A stretch of DNA of 64,000 nucleotides, from NCBI RefSeq assembly GCF_900113445.1, contig NZ_FOPJ01000001.1:248001-312000 (forward strand). The letters are read 5' to 3'. Below the pieces are notes generated by a model. The model made no database searches. It worked only from the letters and a program-made list of their open reading frames with translations, and was not told the DNA's origin. Both the position numbers and the translations under genes were made by a program. This DNA comes from Corynebacterium spheniscorum. Its GTDB lineage: Bacteria > Actinomycetota > Actinomycetes > Mycobacteriales > Mycobacteriaceae. Positions 57,612-64,000 of this stretch are shown piece by piece; the stretch's first letter is position 1, and every line of letters starts with the position of its first letter.

Positions 57612-59663
57612 ATGATTAACCTCAACGAGCTTGATGATGACCAACGCGTAGCAGCCACCGCACCGCGCGGCCCGGTCTGTATTCTTGCTGGCGCGGGCAC
57701 CGGCAAAACTCGCACGATTACCTACCGCATTGCACACCTTATTGACCAAGGCCAAGCCAACCCCAACCGCGTCCTAGCAGTCACCTTCACTGCCCGCGCC
57801 GCCGGGGAGATGCGCCACCGCCTGCACACCATGGGCATCGGTGGGGTCCAAGCCCGCACCTTCCACGCCGCCGCCCGCCGCCAACTCAGCTACTTCTGGC
57901 CCCAAATCGCCGGCGACCTGCCTTGGAAACTGCTTGATAATAAATTCCCGCTGGTAGGCCGCGCGGTACGTTCACTGCGCCTGGATTCCTCCACCGAATC
58001 GGTGCGCGATATCTTAGCCGAAATTGAGTGGGCCAAAGCCTCTCTAGTCACCCCTGAAAAATACCCGGAAGCCATTAAAAACACTGATCGCACCCCGCCG
58101 ATTAATGCCGAGAAAATCGCGGAATGCTATCGCCGCTATGAGCAAGCCAAAATCTCGCCCGAAGGTGTCCTCCTCGACTTCGATGACCTACTGGTCCACA
58201 CCGCCGGGGCACTAGAAAACTCCCCAGCAGTAGCCGAAGAATTCCGCGAGCAATACCGCACCTTCGTGGTGGATGAATACCAGGACGTCACCCCCTTACA
58301 ACAACGCGTCCTGGAAGCCTGGCTAGGGGAGCGCGATGACCTTACGGTGGTCGGCGACGCCAACCAAACCATTTACTCCTTTACCGGCGCCACCCCGGAC
58401 TATTTGCTGAACTTCTCACGCACCTATCCACATGCCACGGTGGTGAAACTCCAGCGCGACTATCGCTCCACCCCACAAGTCACAGAGCTGGCCAATAAGG
58501 TCATTGCCAAAGCCACCGGAAGGGTAGCGGGCACCCGCCTCAAACTTGAAGGCATGCGCCCCGATGGCCCTGAGCCCACCTTCACCGGCTACGCCGATGA
58601 ACCCAGCGAAGCCCGCGAGGTCGCCGGAAAAATCCTTAGCCTGCTCAACGAGGGTGTTCCCGCCAGCGAAATCGCGGTGCTCTACCGCATTAATGCACAA
58701 TCCGCGGTATTTGAACAAGCACTCTCCGATGCCGGCATTGTCTACCAGGTTCGCGGTGGCGAAGGCTTCTTCAAACGCCCCGAGGTCCGCCAAGCCATGA
58801 CCCAACTCATGCGCGCGAGCCAACGCTCGGACCTTATCAATGACCCCATTAAAGTCACCCGCGCTGTCCTCGCGGAACAAGGGCTTACCCCCAGCGAACC
58901 AGAAGGCGCCCAAGCCCGCGAACGCTGGCAGCTGCTTAATGCACTCGCCGAGCTGGTAGAAGAAATCGTGCACGCCATCCCGGATCTTGATCTGGAAGGC
59001 GTCATGCGCGAGCTCCACCGCCGCATGGAAGCTAAACACCCACCCACCGTCGAAGGGGTGACCCTGGCTTCCCTGCATGCCGCCAAGGGCTTGGAATGGG
59101 ATGCGGTTTTCTTAGTTGGCTTGGTCGAAAACACCTTGCCCATTAGCCACGCCATTAAAGCCGGGGACTACCAGATCGAAGAGGAACGCCGGCTTTTCTA
59201 CGTGGGCCTTACCCGCGCCCGCGAACACCTGCACTGCTCCTGGGCTTCCGCCCGCCAAGAAGGCGGCCGCGCGTCTCGCAAACCCTCCCGCTTCCTCGAT
59301 GGCTTCATCCCCGAAAAAGACATCCCCGCCACTGTCCCACCACGCTCGGTACGCCCCAAACGCTGCCGGGTATGCGGCGCACCCCTAGAAACCCCCACCG
59401 CGAAGGTGCTCCGCCGCTGCGAGAGTTGTCCCTCTGATGCCGATGAGGCAGTCTTCGAGGGCCTACGTGCCTGGCGTTCTGAAACCGCAAAAGAACTCAG
59501 CGTGCCGGCCTACATTGTCTTCACCGACGCCACCTTAATGGCCCTGGCAGAAGCCATGCCCGAAACCCCAGAAGAACTCCTCGACATTAGCGGCATTGGT
59601 CCGGCCAAAGCCCAACAATTCGGCGAAGATATTCTCGCCACCATCGCCGGATTCTCCCGCTAA
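57612..59663 (+). CDS. uvrD2: DNA helicase UvrD2
   Basis: A 683-residue UvrD-like 3'-5' helicase. Walker A AGAGTGKTRT is at residues 26-35, Walker B is VVDEYQDVTPLQQ, and LHAAKGLEWDAVFLVGL is motif V. A Cys-x2-Cys ... Cys-x2-Cys cluster (CRVCGAP, RRCESCP) is near residue 580, followed by an HRDC domain (LRAWRSETAKELSVPAYIVF). It is Rv3198c-like, with the tetracysteine and HRDC typical of UvrD2. It probably works in DNA repair. Confidence 0.93.
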   Translation: MINLNELDDDQRVAATAPRGPVCILAGAGTGKTRTITYRIAHLIDQGQANPNRVLAVTFTARAAGEMRHRLHTMGIGGVQARTFHAAARRQLSYFWPQIAGDLPWKLLDNKFPLVGRAVRSLRLDSSTESVRDILAEIEWAKASLVTPEKYPEAIKNTDRTPPINAEKIAECYRRYEQAKISPEGVLLDFDDLLVHTAGALENSPAVAEEFREQYRTFVVDEYQDVTPLQQRVLEAWLGERDDLTVVGDANQTIYSFTGATPDYLLNFSRTYPHATVVKLQRDYRSTPQVTELANKVIAKATGRVAGTRLKLEGMRPDGPEPTFTGYADEPSEAREVAGKILSLLNEGVPASEIAVLYRINAQSAVFEQALSDAGIVYQVRGGEGFFKRPEVRQAMTQLMRASQRSDLINDPIKVTRAVLAEQGLTPSEPEGAQARERWQLLNALAELVEEIVHAIPDLDLEGVMRELHRRMEAKHPPTVEGVTLASLHAAKGLEWDAVFLVGLVENTLPISHAIKAGDYQIEEERRLFYVGLTRAREHLHCSWASARQEGGRASRKPSRFLDGFIPEKDIPATVPPRSVRPKRCRVCGAPLETPTAKVLRRCESCPSDADEAVFEGLRAWRSETAKELSVPAYIVFTDATLMALAEAMPETPEELLDISGIGPAKAQQFGEDILATIAGFSR

Positions 59664-59676
59664 CTCAGCGGTGCTT

Positions 59677-60642
59677 CTAGATCCGCCGCGCATCATGGCA
59701 TACCGGGCAACGCGGATGCGGCCTAAACTCCCGCCGCGTTTCCGGCTGCTCCCCAAACACATCAACGCTCAACATGGTGCCTGCCTGCGGCCGCCACACT
59801 GGTTGCACCCCCGGTGGGGGATCGCGGTGCGGCCGCAATAAATCCAAGACCACCCCCACACAGCGTGCCGCCGTGGCACTTACCGCCACCGGGTTGCGGC
59901 TGGTCGATTGCGTGCCCGTGAGCTGCGTTAACACCCGATAATGGCAAGGATCCGCCGCCGCAGCATAAAGATCCATACATAGCGGGCACGGCCCCGCACC
60001 CCGAATATGCAGCGGACCGATCTGCCCACGCCCATCACTAATACTCACCGGAATCCACGTCGAGGTCCGCGCCGAAAGCGCTGGGGCAAAAAGCCGGGTA
60101 TGCGACCCACGATCCACCACCACAATTGGTCGCGGATCCACCCCCATGGTGCGGGCATAAAGAAATTGCAATTCCGAACCATCATCCCCTACCCGTTGAA
60201 CTCCCACATTATGGGCAAGAAATAGCCTGGTGAGTTCTTCCGCTAATTCCCCATGCCCCAAAAGCGTTAAGTCCGCCCGCTCATCTGGTGCCACATAAGC
60301 CCGCGCATTCTGGTACTCGCTGCGTTTATGCAGCACTCGATAAAGCAATAATTCCTCAATCACCCCCAGCGCGCGTTCCTCAGATAACTCCACATGTTCT
60401 ACTAAGTGCGTCACTAAGTGCTGTACTGGAACTCCCGCAGCGGTTTTCTGCGACAGTATCTGCACCAATTGTGAAGCCCGCGGACTATATATAATCCCAG
60501 CTTGGCGGGCATTTAAACCAAATTGCACATGCTCTTCATCACGCAACAACACGGCCGCGGCGGGCGCTAAACACACCCAATCCTGTGCCTGCAGTGCACC
60601 CAGCGCGCGCGTATCCACGGGCGCGGAAAATGAGACCCCCAA
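59677..60642 (-). CDS. ThiF-like / TOMM leader-peptide-binding-like protein (Rv3196-like), orphan
   Basis: A 321-residue protein resembling the ocin_ThiF_like/cyclodehydratase partner family. The N-terminal winged-helix-like part (LNARQAGIIYSPRASQLVQIL) could bind a leader peptide. A weakened Rossmann segment has LLGHGELAEELTRLFLA, and zinc-type pairs CPLCMDLY and CPVCHD follow. Without the GxGxxG and catalytic Cys of true E1 enzymes it is unlikely to adenylate. No YcaO gene or precursor peptide is nearby. It is convergent with uvrD2 (13 bp between stops). Confidence 0.65.
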   Translation of the reverse strand: MGVSFSAPVDTRALGALQAQDWVCLAPAAAVLLRDEEHVQFGLNARQAGIIYSPRASQLVQILSQKTAAGVPVQHLVTHLVEHVELSEERALGVIEELLLYRVLHKRSEYQNARAYVAPDERADLTLLGHGELAEELTRLFLAHNVGVQRVGDDGSELQFLYARTMGVDPRPIVVVDRGSHTRLFAPALSARTSTWIPVSISDGRGQIGPLHIRGAGPCPLCMDLYAAAADPCHYRVLTQLTGTQSTSRNPVAVSATAARCVGVVLDLLRPHRDPPPGVQPVWRPQAGTMLSVDVFGEQPETRREFRPHPRCPVCHDARRI

Positions 60643-60797: not shown

Positions 60798-61376
60798 ATG
60801 AATGCCACGCCTGATCCCCAGAAGAACGCGAGTATGCCGAACACTCACCCCATCGTTGGCCCGGCCGGCCCAGAAGATTTCCCCATCAAGGTGATTCGTT
60901 CCCCCAAACGCACTCGCACCATGGCCGCACGCTGGGTGGATGGTGTTTTAGAGATCCGTATCCCCGCTACCTTAAGCGTCCAAGCAGAAGCCGAAGCGAT
61001 TAAAGATTTACGCCGCCGGGCCCTTAAACGCTCTCCCTATGCCCGCGCGCACCGCAGCGATGCTGAGCTCGTGGCCCGCGCACATGAGTTGAACGCGAAA
61101 TATTTAGAAAACCGCGCCACCATTGGGGTGATCCGCTGGGTGACTAATCAAAATAAACGCTGGGCTTCTTGTACTACCGCAACCGCAGAAATCCGGGTCA
61201 GCCACCGCCTGCAGCTGGTCCCGGATTATGTGCTGGATGCCGTTTTAGTGCATGAGCTGGTGCACACCTTCATCCCCAATCATTCCCAGGAGTTTTATTC
61301 CTGGGCTGATCGGGTGGCTTTCGCGGAGCGTGCCCGCGGCTACCTAGAGGCCTACCAACGCTTCGGGCAGTCCTAG
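60798..61376 (+). CDS. YgjP-like (DUF45) metallopeptidase
   Basis: A 192-residue protein with the M48-like zincin motif LVHELVHTFIPNHSQEFY (HExxH plus the third His). The middle is the DUF45-typical IGVIRWVTNQNKRWASC then EIRVSHRLQLVPDYVLDAVL. ATG 60798 is used; ATG 60837 (MPNTHP) is an alternative. It is convergent with the DUF2342 gene, the stops overlapping by 4 bp. The role is unproven. Confidence 0.87.
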   Translation: MNATPDPQKNASMPNTHPIVGPAGPEDFPIKVIRSPKRTRTMAARWVDGVLEIRIPATLSVQAEAEAIKDLRRRALKRSPYARAHRSDAELVARAHELNAKYLENRATIGVIRWVTNQNKRWASCTTATAEIRVSHRLQLVPDYVLDAVLVHELVHTFIPNHSQEFYSWADRVAFAERARGYLEAYQRFGQS

Positions 61377-62833
61377 TCCTCAGGGCCCTTGGGGTCCTCG
61401 GAGTCGTCTTCGCCCTTATCCTTATCTTCTTGTTCCTGCTTATGCAGCATCTCTTCGAGCTTATTGATCTCCGCAATGGGGTCGAAGTCCGGCAGATCAT
61501 CTTCACCTAAGAGGCGATCAATAAAGGCCGCGGAGTTCTCCAAATCAGCAGCAACTGGCAGGAAGTCCGGGTGATCCCACACCCCATCGCGGCGCTGCAT
61601 CCCCACGGCCACATCCACGCGCCGCCAGAGTTCAGCCGCATCAGAAACCTTCGGGGCGGTAATCTCAATGCCTACAATCGCCGATAGCGCCTTATCCGCA
61701 GAACCGCCACTAGCGCGGCGGCGACGCCACGCCTCAGAAAGCGCTGGGGTAGCCGGAATGCGATCACCTAGGGCTTTATCCACCACATGATCCACCCACC
61801 CTTCAATCAAGGCGAGCAGCGTTTCTAGGCGGGAGGAGGCCTGCTCATTACGAGAGACCAGGCGCGGGGCAATCTCATCGGATTGCAGGCGCTGCAGGGC
61901 CTCTTGGATGCGTTCGGGATCCCCACCTTGGAAATCAACATCGCGCATGGCTTCATCTAAAGCAGAGGTATCTATCTCCATGCCGGCGGAGTATTCCTCC
62001 ACCGCAGAAACCACAGATTCCCGCAACCAGGGCACGTGCTGGAAGAGGCGCTGGCGGGCCACCTCGCGGGCACAGATATAGACCAATAGCTCCTGTGGGG
62101 CTAGATCTAATGCCTTAGACATGGCCTTTAAATTCCGCGGCAAAATAGCGGTCACCCCGGCGGGACTGAGCGGTAACCCAAAATCGGAGCCGGTTAATAC
62201 TTCCTGCGCTAATTCACCCAACGCATGGCCACTACGCACCGCGGTGGTCATGGCATTCATGCGATTAAACATTCCCGCCATCGGCCCCATCATCTCGCGG
62301 GCTTGTTCGGGCATGGCATCTAATTGCGCTTGGGCGGTGTGTTCCGCCACGGGGCTCAACAGGCGCTGCCACATCGGCATGGTTTCTTTTAACCAGGTTG
62401 CCGCATTCCAAGAAACGGTCGTCCCGCCGGTTGCCGGCAAGATCGTGGCATCGTCTAACCAAAGCTCCGCCAGGCGGATGGATTCGCGTACCGCATTCTG
62501 ATCCTCGGCGGGGCGCTCCCCGCGCACATGCTGCAAGGCGGTGCGTTCTACTAGGTCGATGTCCAGCACTTCACCCTCAGACTGAGCGGAGGCGAAACCG
62601 GACATCATTTGCCCGAATTGGTCGAGCATATCGCTAAGGTTCCCGAACCCAGGGCCACCAGCTGGGCCACCGGGTTGGTTCGGGTCGCCACCACCGGGCA
62701 TCCCGAAAATGGGGATCCCGAAGATGCCGAAGTTTCCGAAGCCGCTATTGCGCTGTTCTTCTTCGCGTTTGCGGCGCTCTTCATCGTCCTCGTCGTCGTT
62801 ACCAAAAGAAAAACCAAAGCCACCTGTGTTCAT
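61373..62833 (-). CDS. DUF2342 zinc-metalloprotease-like protein (Rv3195-like)
   Basis: A protein of about 486 residues. A Gly/Phe-rich, charged N-terminus (DDEDDEERRKREEEQRNSG) is followed by an alpha-helical zincin-like fold (AREVARQRLFQHVPWLRESV and VEEYSAGMEID). The family is called zinc-dependent metalloprotease or F420-associated. No clear HExxH is seen. The start is set at ATG 62833; GTG and TTG codons lie just upstream. Confidence 0.85.
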   Translation of the reverse strand: MNTGGFGFSFGNDDEDDEERRKREEEQRNSGFGNFGIFGIPIFGMPGGGDPNQPGGPAGGPGFGNLSDMLDQFGQMMSGFASAQSEGEVLDIDLVERTALQHVRGERPAEDQNAVRESIRLAELWLDDATILPATGGTTVSWNAATWLKETMPMWQRLLSPVAEHTAQAQLDAMPEQAREMMGPMAGMFNRMNAMTTAVRSGHALGELAQEVLTGSDFGLPLSPAGVTAILPRNLKAMSKALDLAPQELLVYICAREVARQRLFQHVPWLRESVVSAVEEYSAGMEIDTSALDEAMRDVDFQGGDPERIQEALQRLQSDEIAPRLVSRNEQASSRLETLLALIEGWVDHVVDKALGDRIPATPALSEAWRRRRASGGSADKALSAIVGIEITAPKVSDAAELWRRVDVAVGMQRRDGVWDHPDFLPVAADLENSAAFIDRLLGEDDLPDFDPIAEINKLEEMLHKQEQEDKDKGEDDSEDPKGPED

Positions 62834-62949
62834 GCGCACCAATCTACCGCCCTAACCTGGTGGGTGCGTGGAAAATGAGACATGCTCTCAGCGAACAAGC
62901 AGGAGACTAGCGGCCCCGTGTCAGCGGAGGCCAGGTAGTCTATGTCTTC

Positions 62950-64000
62950 GTGAACCGTCGACTCCGCACTTTCGTTTGGGGCGTATTGCCCATCGCCGCT
63001 TTGGGCACGCTGGCTAGCTTGGACCATGTACCGGGCACCGATATTGATTTAACTGTGCCTTATGCAGCCGAAGGTCCGGGGCCTACCTTTAATACCTTGG
63101 ATGATTATGAGGGCAAACCCGTCATCGATATCCAAGGCGCAGAATTAGATCCCACCAGCGGAAACCTCAATATGACCACGGTGGCGGTACGCACGCATAT
63201 GTCTTTGGCCCAAACCCTTTATCGCTGGGTGGCCACCAAGGACACCATTGTGCCGATCGAGCAGATCTTCCCCCCTGGTTTTAGTGAAGAGCAGGTGCAG
63301 GAAAATAATAAGATCGCCTTTTCCACCTCAGAAAACGCGGCGACCGCAGCAGCCCTGCGCTATTTGAATCGCCCCTTTGATGTGCGGGTGGAAGAGATTC
63401 TGCCGGATTCTTCGGCGAAGGATGTCTTAGCGCCTGGCGATATTATTGTGGCTGTTGATGGCCGCAAAGTCGCTGATCCGATGACGGTGCGCACCGCTGT
63501 GCGCGCGCATGCCCCGGGCGAGGATGTGAGCATTATGGTGCGTAAGGATTCCGGGGAAGAAGCGGTGCATAAACTAAAACTTGGCCAGTCCAAGCAAGAA
63601 GCCGGGAAAGCCCAGCTGGGTATTTTGATGAGCGCCCAATCAGCTGAGGGCATTCAGGTGGAATATAACTTGGATGACATTGGTGGGCCTTCCGCCGGCC
63701 TTATTTTCTCCTTGGCGGTGGTGGATAAACTCAGCCCCGGGGAAATTAATGGCGGGAAATTCGTTGCCGGCACCGGCACCATTAAAGAGGATGGCACCGT
63801 TGGCCCCATCGGCGGCATTGTGCATAAAATCCAGGCCGCCAGCGATGCTGGTGCGGAAGTATTCTTAAGCCCACGGCTAAATTGTGGTGAGGCCTTAAGC
63901 CGCAAACACGATAATCTCACGATCGTCGCCGTAGATAGCTTAGAAGATGCAATCTCCCAGCTTGAGGCCTATAACCGTGGCGATAAAGAGCAGCTGCGCA
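62950..64000 (+). CDS. PDZ-Lon (S16) family protease, 5' part
   Basis: Starts at GTG 62950 and runs off the right edge (350 codons visible). One helix near residues 7-24 anchors it. A PDZ domain spans about residues 135-190 (VLAPGDIIVAVDGRKVADP). The S16 catalytic Ser is in GGPSAGLIFSL and the Lys in GGIVHKIQAA. It is Rv3194c-like. It likely cleaves membrane or envelope proteins. Confidence 0.88.
   Translation, partial: MNRRLRTFVWGVLPIAALGTLASLDHVPGTDIDLTVPYAAEGPGPTFNTLDDYEGKPVIDIQGAELDPTSGNLNMTTVAVRTHMSLAQTLYRWVATKDTIVPIEQIFPPGFSEEQVQENNKIAFSTSENAATAAALRYLNRPFDVRVEEILPDSSAKDVLAPGDIIVAVDGRKVADPMTVRTAVRAHAPGEDVSIMVRKDSGEEAVHKLKLGQSKQEAGKAQLGILMSAQSAEGIQVEYNLDDIGGPSAGLIFSLAVVDKLSPGEINGGKFVAGTGTIKEDGTVGPIGGIVHKIQAASDAGAEVFLSPRLNCGEALSRKHDNLTIVAVDSLEDAISQLEAYNRGDKEQLR

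Follow-up and report, generated by a model that had tools for sequence, protein, structure and literature searches.

The window gene, whose product is designated E1L, belongs to a family of proteins that combine an RRE-like winged helix, an E1-like domain and four cysteines in the architecture of MccB and PaaA, and it is located in a fixed gene block that is not linked to YcaO. The class orthologues apparently stand in an operon with a gene for an ABC1 ATPase and often with a gene for the small peptide DUF5679; DUF5679 has nearly always been lost in the family of the window, and ABC1 has mostly been lost in its genus. The window is the whole stretch of 64,000 nucleotides analysed, positions 248001-312000 of contig C7 in a 2.46-Mb assembly, and in all counts the terms family, genus and class refer to those of its organism. 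The features are listed in Table 1.

Table 1. E1L, its parts and the adjoining genes in the window.
Feature	Positions	Strand	Basis or occurrence
E1L, RRE-like winged helix, E1/ThiF-like domain and two Cys pairs; 321 aa	59677..60642	-	ORF, TIGR03882, profile, model
E1L RRE-like N-terminal domain, residues 22-106	60325..60579	-	DSSP of model; limits approximate
E1L shortened Rossmann part of E1-like domain, residues 124-200	60043..60273	-	Alignment and model
E1L first Cys pair, C219 and C222	59977..59988	-	Invariant, 30/30
E1L second Cys pair, C312 and C315	59698..59709	-	Invariant, 30/30
UvrD2-type helicase with HRDC domain, convergent neighbour	57612..59663	+	20/20 family loci
YgjP-like metallopeptidase, divergent neighbour	60798..61376	+	PF01863, 2.7e-15; 10/20 family loci
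Zincin_2 metallopeptidase (TIGR03624), same strand as E1L	61373..62842	-	20/20 family loci
PDZ-Lon(S16) protein, continues past window end	62950..64000	+	20/20 family loci

The E1L reading frame starts with a TTG codon preceded by the purine-rich sequence GGAAGG. No Pfam family scored above its own cut-off for the window protein, and the NCBIfam model TIGR03882 (TOMM precursor leader peptide-binding) matched residues 195-319 with an E-value of 3.5e-8 and 33.8 bits, below its cut-off of 36.9. TIGR03693 (Ocin-ThiF-like) was absent from the NCBIfam matches, and no match to the window protein was found in the defence library, in which one class-form E1L gave weak E1-E2 matches. In a profile of 30 E1L homologues (A1), residues G42, L98, G129, G209, P210, C219, C222, C312 and C315 were invariant, and the two pairs of cysteines, present in the window protein and in all 30 homologues, probably hold a structural zinc.

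The first-pass annotation had likened the protein to the leader-binding RRE/ThiF partners of YcaO and had proposed a structure prediction as a check. The likeness is borne out by both profile and predicted fold, and the model matched TruD, LynD and MccB rather than a fold unrelated to ThiF/RRE. Against PDB sequences the A1 profile retrieved TruD (4bs9, E 1.4e-13), LynD (4v1t, 1.6e-8), MusD (2e-4) and MccB (0.003-0.009). A model predicted from A1 (mean pLDDT 86.2) places strands at residues 22-52, three helices at 56-100 and another strand at 104-106 in the RRE-like domain, as assigned by DSSP. In Foldseek searches TruD (5.6e-13) and LynD (2.8e-12) ranked on top and MccB was among the first matches. 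VIA-align superimposed the model on MccB (Z 16.1, 266 residues aligned, 5.1 A) and TruD (Z 15.6, 260 residues, 4.9 A) over residues 20-316, with the predicted winged helix on the RRE part of both proteins, and UBA5 aligned with the C-terminal part alone (Z up to 16.0). An E1-like Rossmann domain was found by both the profile and the predicted fold, although the Pfam ThiF model matched only one of the 30 family-form sequences at E <= 1 and the comparison of the family-form profile with the genome's own ThiF-type protein yielded nothing (0.2% probability).

Class orthologues that share the neighbour genes of the window have a longer E1 domain, in the PaaA/MccB architecture. By alignment column, the two invariant glycines are separated by 107-123 residues in all but one of the 15 class sequences and by 90 in that one (L131); the corresponding distance, G129-G209, is 80 residues in the window E1L and 71-80 across the 30 rows of A1, the family form being about 30-50 residues shorter. 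The ThiF model PF00899 matched 14 of the 15 class sequences at E <= 0.1, and a profile built from them (A2) retrieved MccB (1.3e-15) from the PDB, together with PaaA, MoeB, ThiF and Uba5. The predicted class-form model (pLDDT 86.3) aligned by VIA-align nearly full-length with PaaA (Z 25.4, 299 residues, 3.1 A) and MccB (Z 24.9), and profile comparison with the genome's own ThiF-type protein gave a probability of 70% and an E-value of 3.9e-5.

Alignments of the class form with MccB and with the ThiF-type protein of the genome show that its glycine loop is retained, as is the first Asp. In the columns which we take to be those of the E1 catalytic residues, the canonical Arg was found in none of the 15 class sequences (P in 13, G in 2), the canonical Lys in none (R in 11) and the catalytic Asp in 4. 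Much of the Arg/Lys segment is missing from the family form in the alignment, and D177, nearly invariant in that form, follows the same strand as the E1 catalytic Asp. Judged from sequence, the E1L family would be a pseudo-E1 that is further reduced in the family of the window, a reading that draws on an alignment with 22% identity (class form against the genome's own ThiF-type protein) and on the residue roles generally assigned to E1 enzymes.

E1L homologues were found in all 151 family genomes, 125 by single sequence and the other 26 with the A1 profile. In the class, 176 of 197 genomes matched A1 at E <= 1e-3, a count that takes in weak ThiF-type matches, orthology being assigned by neighbourhood in 20 class loci; it is within the class that the E1L family has been followed in full. 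A search of the phylum with A2 matched 119 of 149 genomes, 107 of them outside the class, where all the matches listed were confined to the ThiF region of the model, reaching at most position 322 of 349, with a best E-value of 3.3e-13; distant short forms may nevertheless exist there, since the window E1L itself scores just 1.8e-8 against A2. One candidate (L002), the single match of a contig search, shared one octapeptide, and it was dropped because its frame had no Cys pairs.

E1L is flanked on one side by genes for an ion channel, a NUDIX protein and the helicase, presumably UvrD2, and on the other by the YgjP-like, Zincin_2 and PDZ-Lon genes. Twenty family loci were chosen by us among the matches, 7 from the genus of the window and 13 from other genera; UvrD2, Zincin_2 and PDZ-Lon were present in all of them, in agreement with the conserved place next to uvrD2 noted in the first-pass annotation. 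A WhiB-type gene was also found in the 13 loci outside the genus and in none of the 7 within it. In 20 class loci, likewise chosen by us and including some short stretches, UvrD2 was seen in 17 and Zincin_2 in 18. The conserved gene order may reflect the inertia of a stable chromosomal block. Two class loci from another family (L133 and L135) were without ABC1, WhiB, YgjP and DUF5679 and carried E1L beside Zincin_2 and UvrD2, an arrangement that parallels the window locus.

The ABC1 gene followed E1L on the same strand in all 13 family loci outside the genus, with its alignment starting between -22 and +99 bp from the E1L end, and in none of the 7 loci within it; one of the 13 (L044) was the source of the ABC1 and WhiB queries. 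The same arrangement was found in 17 of the 20 class loci (start -37 to +102 bp); of the remaining three, ABC1 was on the opposite strand in L130 and was not found in L133 and L135. The encoded protein is MABP-1 (PDB 5yjz, E 2.8e-242; NF050082, 875.8 bits). MABP-1 (Rv3197) is reported to be an ATPase with a solved structure, and BCG deleted for it grows less under erythromycin (PMC6208485). Within the genus, one species (G370) retains an ABC1 gene directly downstream of E1L (L196 8177-10398), 42% identical to MABP-1, which makes a loss of ABC1 in the genus likely. Strong ABC1 matches (E below 1e-50) occurred in 7 of 41 genus genomes, and those other than G370 were 24-29% identical to MABP-1 and did not adjoin E1L where seen. 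The other 34 genomes, that of the window among them, had weak partial matches alone, and E1L persists in them without a strong ABC1; at the window locus ABC1 was not found, the best of the weak partial matches elsewhere in the genome having an E-value of 1.1e-8. From its number, adjoining Rv3197, Rv3196 would be the counterpart of E1L in the tuberculosis group. For the small protein Rv3196A, presence in culture filtrate has been reported (PMC10159623). No study on the E1L protein was found among the open-licence papers listed.

A clustering of small ORFs revealed a conserved four-cysteine ORF of about 50 amino acids upstream of E1L, which corresponds to the Pfam family DUF5679 (6.9e-17). This clustering gave many ORFs that were shadows of the adjoining genes, among which DUF5679 and a glutaredoxin-like family were judged real by eye. 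The glutaredoxin-like family (CGYC), also named by eye, occurred in 20 of 40 loci (L042 14191-14553, L120 3306-3548 and 18 others), beside uvrD2 and not beside E1L where examined. DUF5679 was present in 115 of 197 class genomes and in 15 of the 20 chosen class loci, in 1 of 151 family genomes and in none of 14 control genomes. In 73 of the 88 genomes with both places listed, it was at most 3.5 kb upstream of E1L and in the same orientation; in the other 15 it was near but arranged otherwise (6), far away (2) or on another contig (7). A further 27 class genomes had DUF5679 with no E1L place among the matches listed; E1L was not matched in 8 of these, nor, by elimination, in one more, and the others scored below the point at which the list was cut. 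The 20 distinct DUF5679 peptides (49-58 aa) share the pattern G..YCVKC..KR...G.......G...A...C..C.T...RILGK. The pattern used to select them covered the Cys part and not the tail, and RILGK was present in all 20, with the exact end RILGKA in 18. Neither DUF5679 nor PF18930 was found in any paper of the open-licence literature searched.

The first-pass annotation had taken the gene for an orphan; in the class this description does not apply, as the orthologues adjoin the ABC1 ATPase gene and often the small conserved peptide DUF5679. The gene set DUF5679-E1L-ABC1 is not found at the window locus, where E1L adjoins neither partner, and a search of the window genome did not find DUF5679. DUF5679 is not an obligate partner of E1L, since it is missing from 150 of the 151 family genomes, in which E1L persists. 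A relation between loop length and the presence of DUF5679 was also considered and was rejected as inconsistent, with long-form E1L in genomes without DUF5679 (L126, L127, L139) and short-form E1L together with DUF5679 (L132, L042).

Our preferred reading, held tentatively, is that E1L may be a non-catalytic adaptor that binds peptides or protein tails, left over from a DUF5679-E1-ABC1 operon. The E1-like domain would have lost the adenylation of any substrate. Like other RREs, the winged helix would grip a strand-like peptide or a protein tail; a structural zinc would be kept by the cysteine pairs, and the protein would present the bound client to a partner that either uses ATP or is proteolytic. 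In the ancestral state this partner would have been the ABC1 ATPase, and DUF5679 would have served either as the client or as a co-factor. The adaptor would have been retained in the genus for a different client; the first candidate for its partner there is the Zincin_2 metallopeptidase encoded on the same strand. We infer binding from the fold and partnership from the gene order.

In much of the class, E1L could instead be an active enzyme that activates the carboxyl end of DUF5679 (...RILGK) or modifies this peptide, with ABC1 as a second enzyme and the window copy as a decayed descendant. MccB, which activates a heptapeptide, is the model for such an activity. The frequent position of the small-peptide gene upstream of the RRE-E1 gene, the constant RILGK tail and the rank of PaaA and MccB as best matches of the long form are all favourable to it, but the canonical Arg and Lys are missing from every class sequence aligned, the motif of DUF5679 resembles a zinc ribbon, with nucleic acid as a possible ligand, and several long-form E1Ls come from genomes without DUF5679. 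An active enzyme is considered unlikely.

A role as adaptor solely for the neighbouring peptidases (Zincin_2, YgjP-like and PDZ-Lon), to which unfolded tails would be delivered for cleavage, is rather unlikely. It would agree with the presence of Zincin_2 and PDZ-Lon in every family locus and with L133 and L135, which in the absence of ABC1 retain E1L beside Zincin_2, as in the genus of the window. However, YgjP is found in just half of the family loci (10 of 20), and both PDZ-Lon and YgjP are on the opposite strand, so that E1L shares no operon with them.

The winged helix with its zinc might also indicate a DNA- or RNA-binding regulator, for instance of the neighbouring stress genes whiB7 and uvrD2, a proposal that we regard as improbable. 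Weak HTH matches at E <= 1 (IclR in 4 of 30 sequences, MarR in 1 of 30) and the WhiB-type gene near 13 of the 20 family loci speak for it. Nevertheless, RREs are themselves winged helices and yield such HTH matches, according to an excerpt of PMC7470986. Moreover, the invariant residues of E1L are concentrated in the E1/Cys part, and the top-ranked folds are those of peptide-modifying enzymes.

The sequences in which selection was analysed numbered 36 and came mostly from the genus (33), with 3 from another genus. The window copy was excluded from this set because it had no close relative among the sequences compared. The two Cys pairs were present in 35 of the 36, the remaining sequence being shortened by the domain match. 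The dN/dS ratio was 0.04-0.15 in 16 non-independent pairs with at least 88% identity (15 of them from the genus) and 0.13-0.62 in 21 pairs with 50-75% identity, several of them near saturation. The relatives of E1L in the genus are under purifying selection. A single-sequence search with the window E1L matched 85 of 101 genus genomes, with 25-42% identity among the matches listed; UvrD2 is 60-74% identical across the 7 genus loci, E1L being far more variable. E1L in the genus thus combines short-term constraint with fast long-term divergence, and this divergence, with dN/dS values up to 0.62, is equally compatible with relaxed constraint and with a change of client. That E1L is a functionless relic, as the loss of partner genes and the fast divergence within the genus could suggest, is very improbable in view of the low dN/dS among close relatives and the conserved Cys pairs. 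Of the old housekeeping role that the first-pass annotation had proposed, the age holds, E1L being present in all family genomes; the housekeeping part is unproven, as the identity of E1L within the genus is far below that of UvrD2.

The least credible alternative, that E1L works in trans as the TOMM partner of a YcaO encoded at another locus, is rejected, as it is largely refuted by the distribution of E1L and YcaO. Of the 151 family genomes, 18 have a YcaO above the Pfam cut-off and 133 have none. In 12 of the 18 the YcaO was on a different contig from the best E1L match, and in the other 6 the two were at least 176 kb apart, a count in which contig breaks could mask some proximity; the best E1L match did not share a cluster with YcaO in any of these genomes, nor does E1L in that of the window. 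Only in G059 did a YcaO lie close to an A1 match, at about 2 kb; this match is the second one in that genome and weak (E 7.1e-4), and a separate TOMM partner would be expected to give such a match. As the first-pass annotation had noted, there is no intact YcaO partner near E1L; the possibility it had raised of one elsewhere in the genome was examined, and the sole YcaO of the window genome lies outside the window on contig C26 and is a truncated ORF of 226 aa that covers profile positions 2-123 of 325. This ORF (L033 8095-10411) is downstream of genes for an ABC transporter ATPase and an ABC-2 permease, and ORFs near it look transposase-like by eye; the locus is at best a possible remnant of a broken TOMM locus. 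In favour of the TOMM reading there are this YcaO fragment and the TIGR03882 scores of four homologues that were scanned one by one, three of which exceeded the cut-off (37.5, 39.2 and 44.3 bits). By this model the three (L011, L012 and L013) would count as TOMM leader-binding proteins. Proteins outside TOMM clusters can thus score above the cut-off and receive the NCBIfam name 'TOMM precursor leader peptide-binding protein', which can inflate RiPP genome mining.

To our knowledge, all known RRE-E1 proteins belong to antibiotic-type peptide pathways. E1L has the same order of RRE, E1-like Rossmann domain and Cys pairs as MccB and PaaA, and its class form, with a small-peptide gene upstream in most of the genomes with both places listed, resembles them further; it differs in the changed canonical Arg and Lys, in the shortened family form and, at the window locus, in having no known peptide partner gene. 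The N-terminal half of TruD and LynD (TIGR03882, TOMM C domain) shares the RRE, the E1-like domain and the Cys pairs, TruD being the best PDB profile match of the family form, but E1L has no YcaO half and is found at a fixed chromosomal locus. The Ocin-ThiF-like F proteins of TIGR03693, a model not matched by E1L, have an RRE fused to a ThiF-like fold, are involved in peptide delivery and come from heterocycloanthracin and thiopeptide clusters, as described in an excerpt of PMC7470986. The ABC1 ATPase MABP-1, missing at the window locus, is a candidate partner of E1L and not a relative.

More broadly, and with considerable doubt, DUF5679, E1L and a MABP-1-type ATPase might constitute a core system of the class for handling peptides outside antibiotic pathways, in which ABC1 would replace YcaO and which would perhaps underlie the macrolide tolerance linked to MABP-1, with the window as a reduced end state. 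If so, a RiPP-like logic (a small peptide, an RRE/E1-like clamp and an ATP-using enzyme) would have been put to housekeeping, and the class-wide chromosomal E1L, with its strongly conserved 50-residue peptide and MABP-1, would represent RRE-E1 machinery in non-antibiotic use. The E1L neighbourhood would then give a testable context to DUF5679 and to MABP-1, a protein with a solved structure and an unexplained function.
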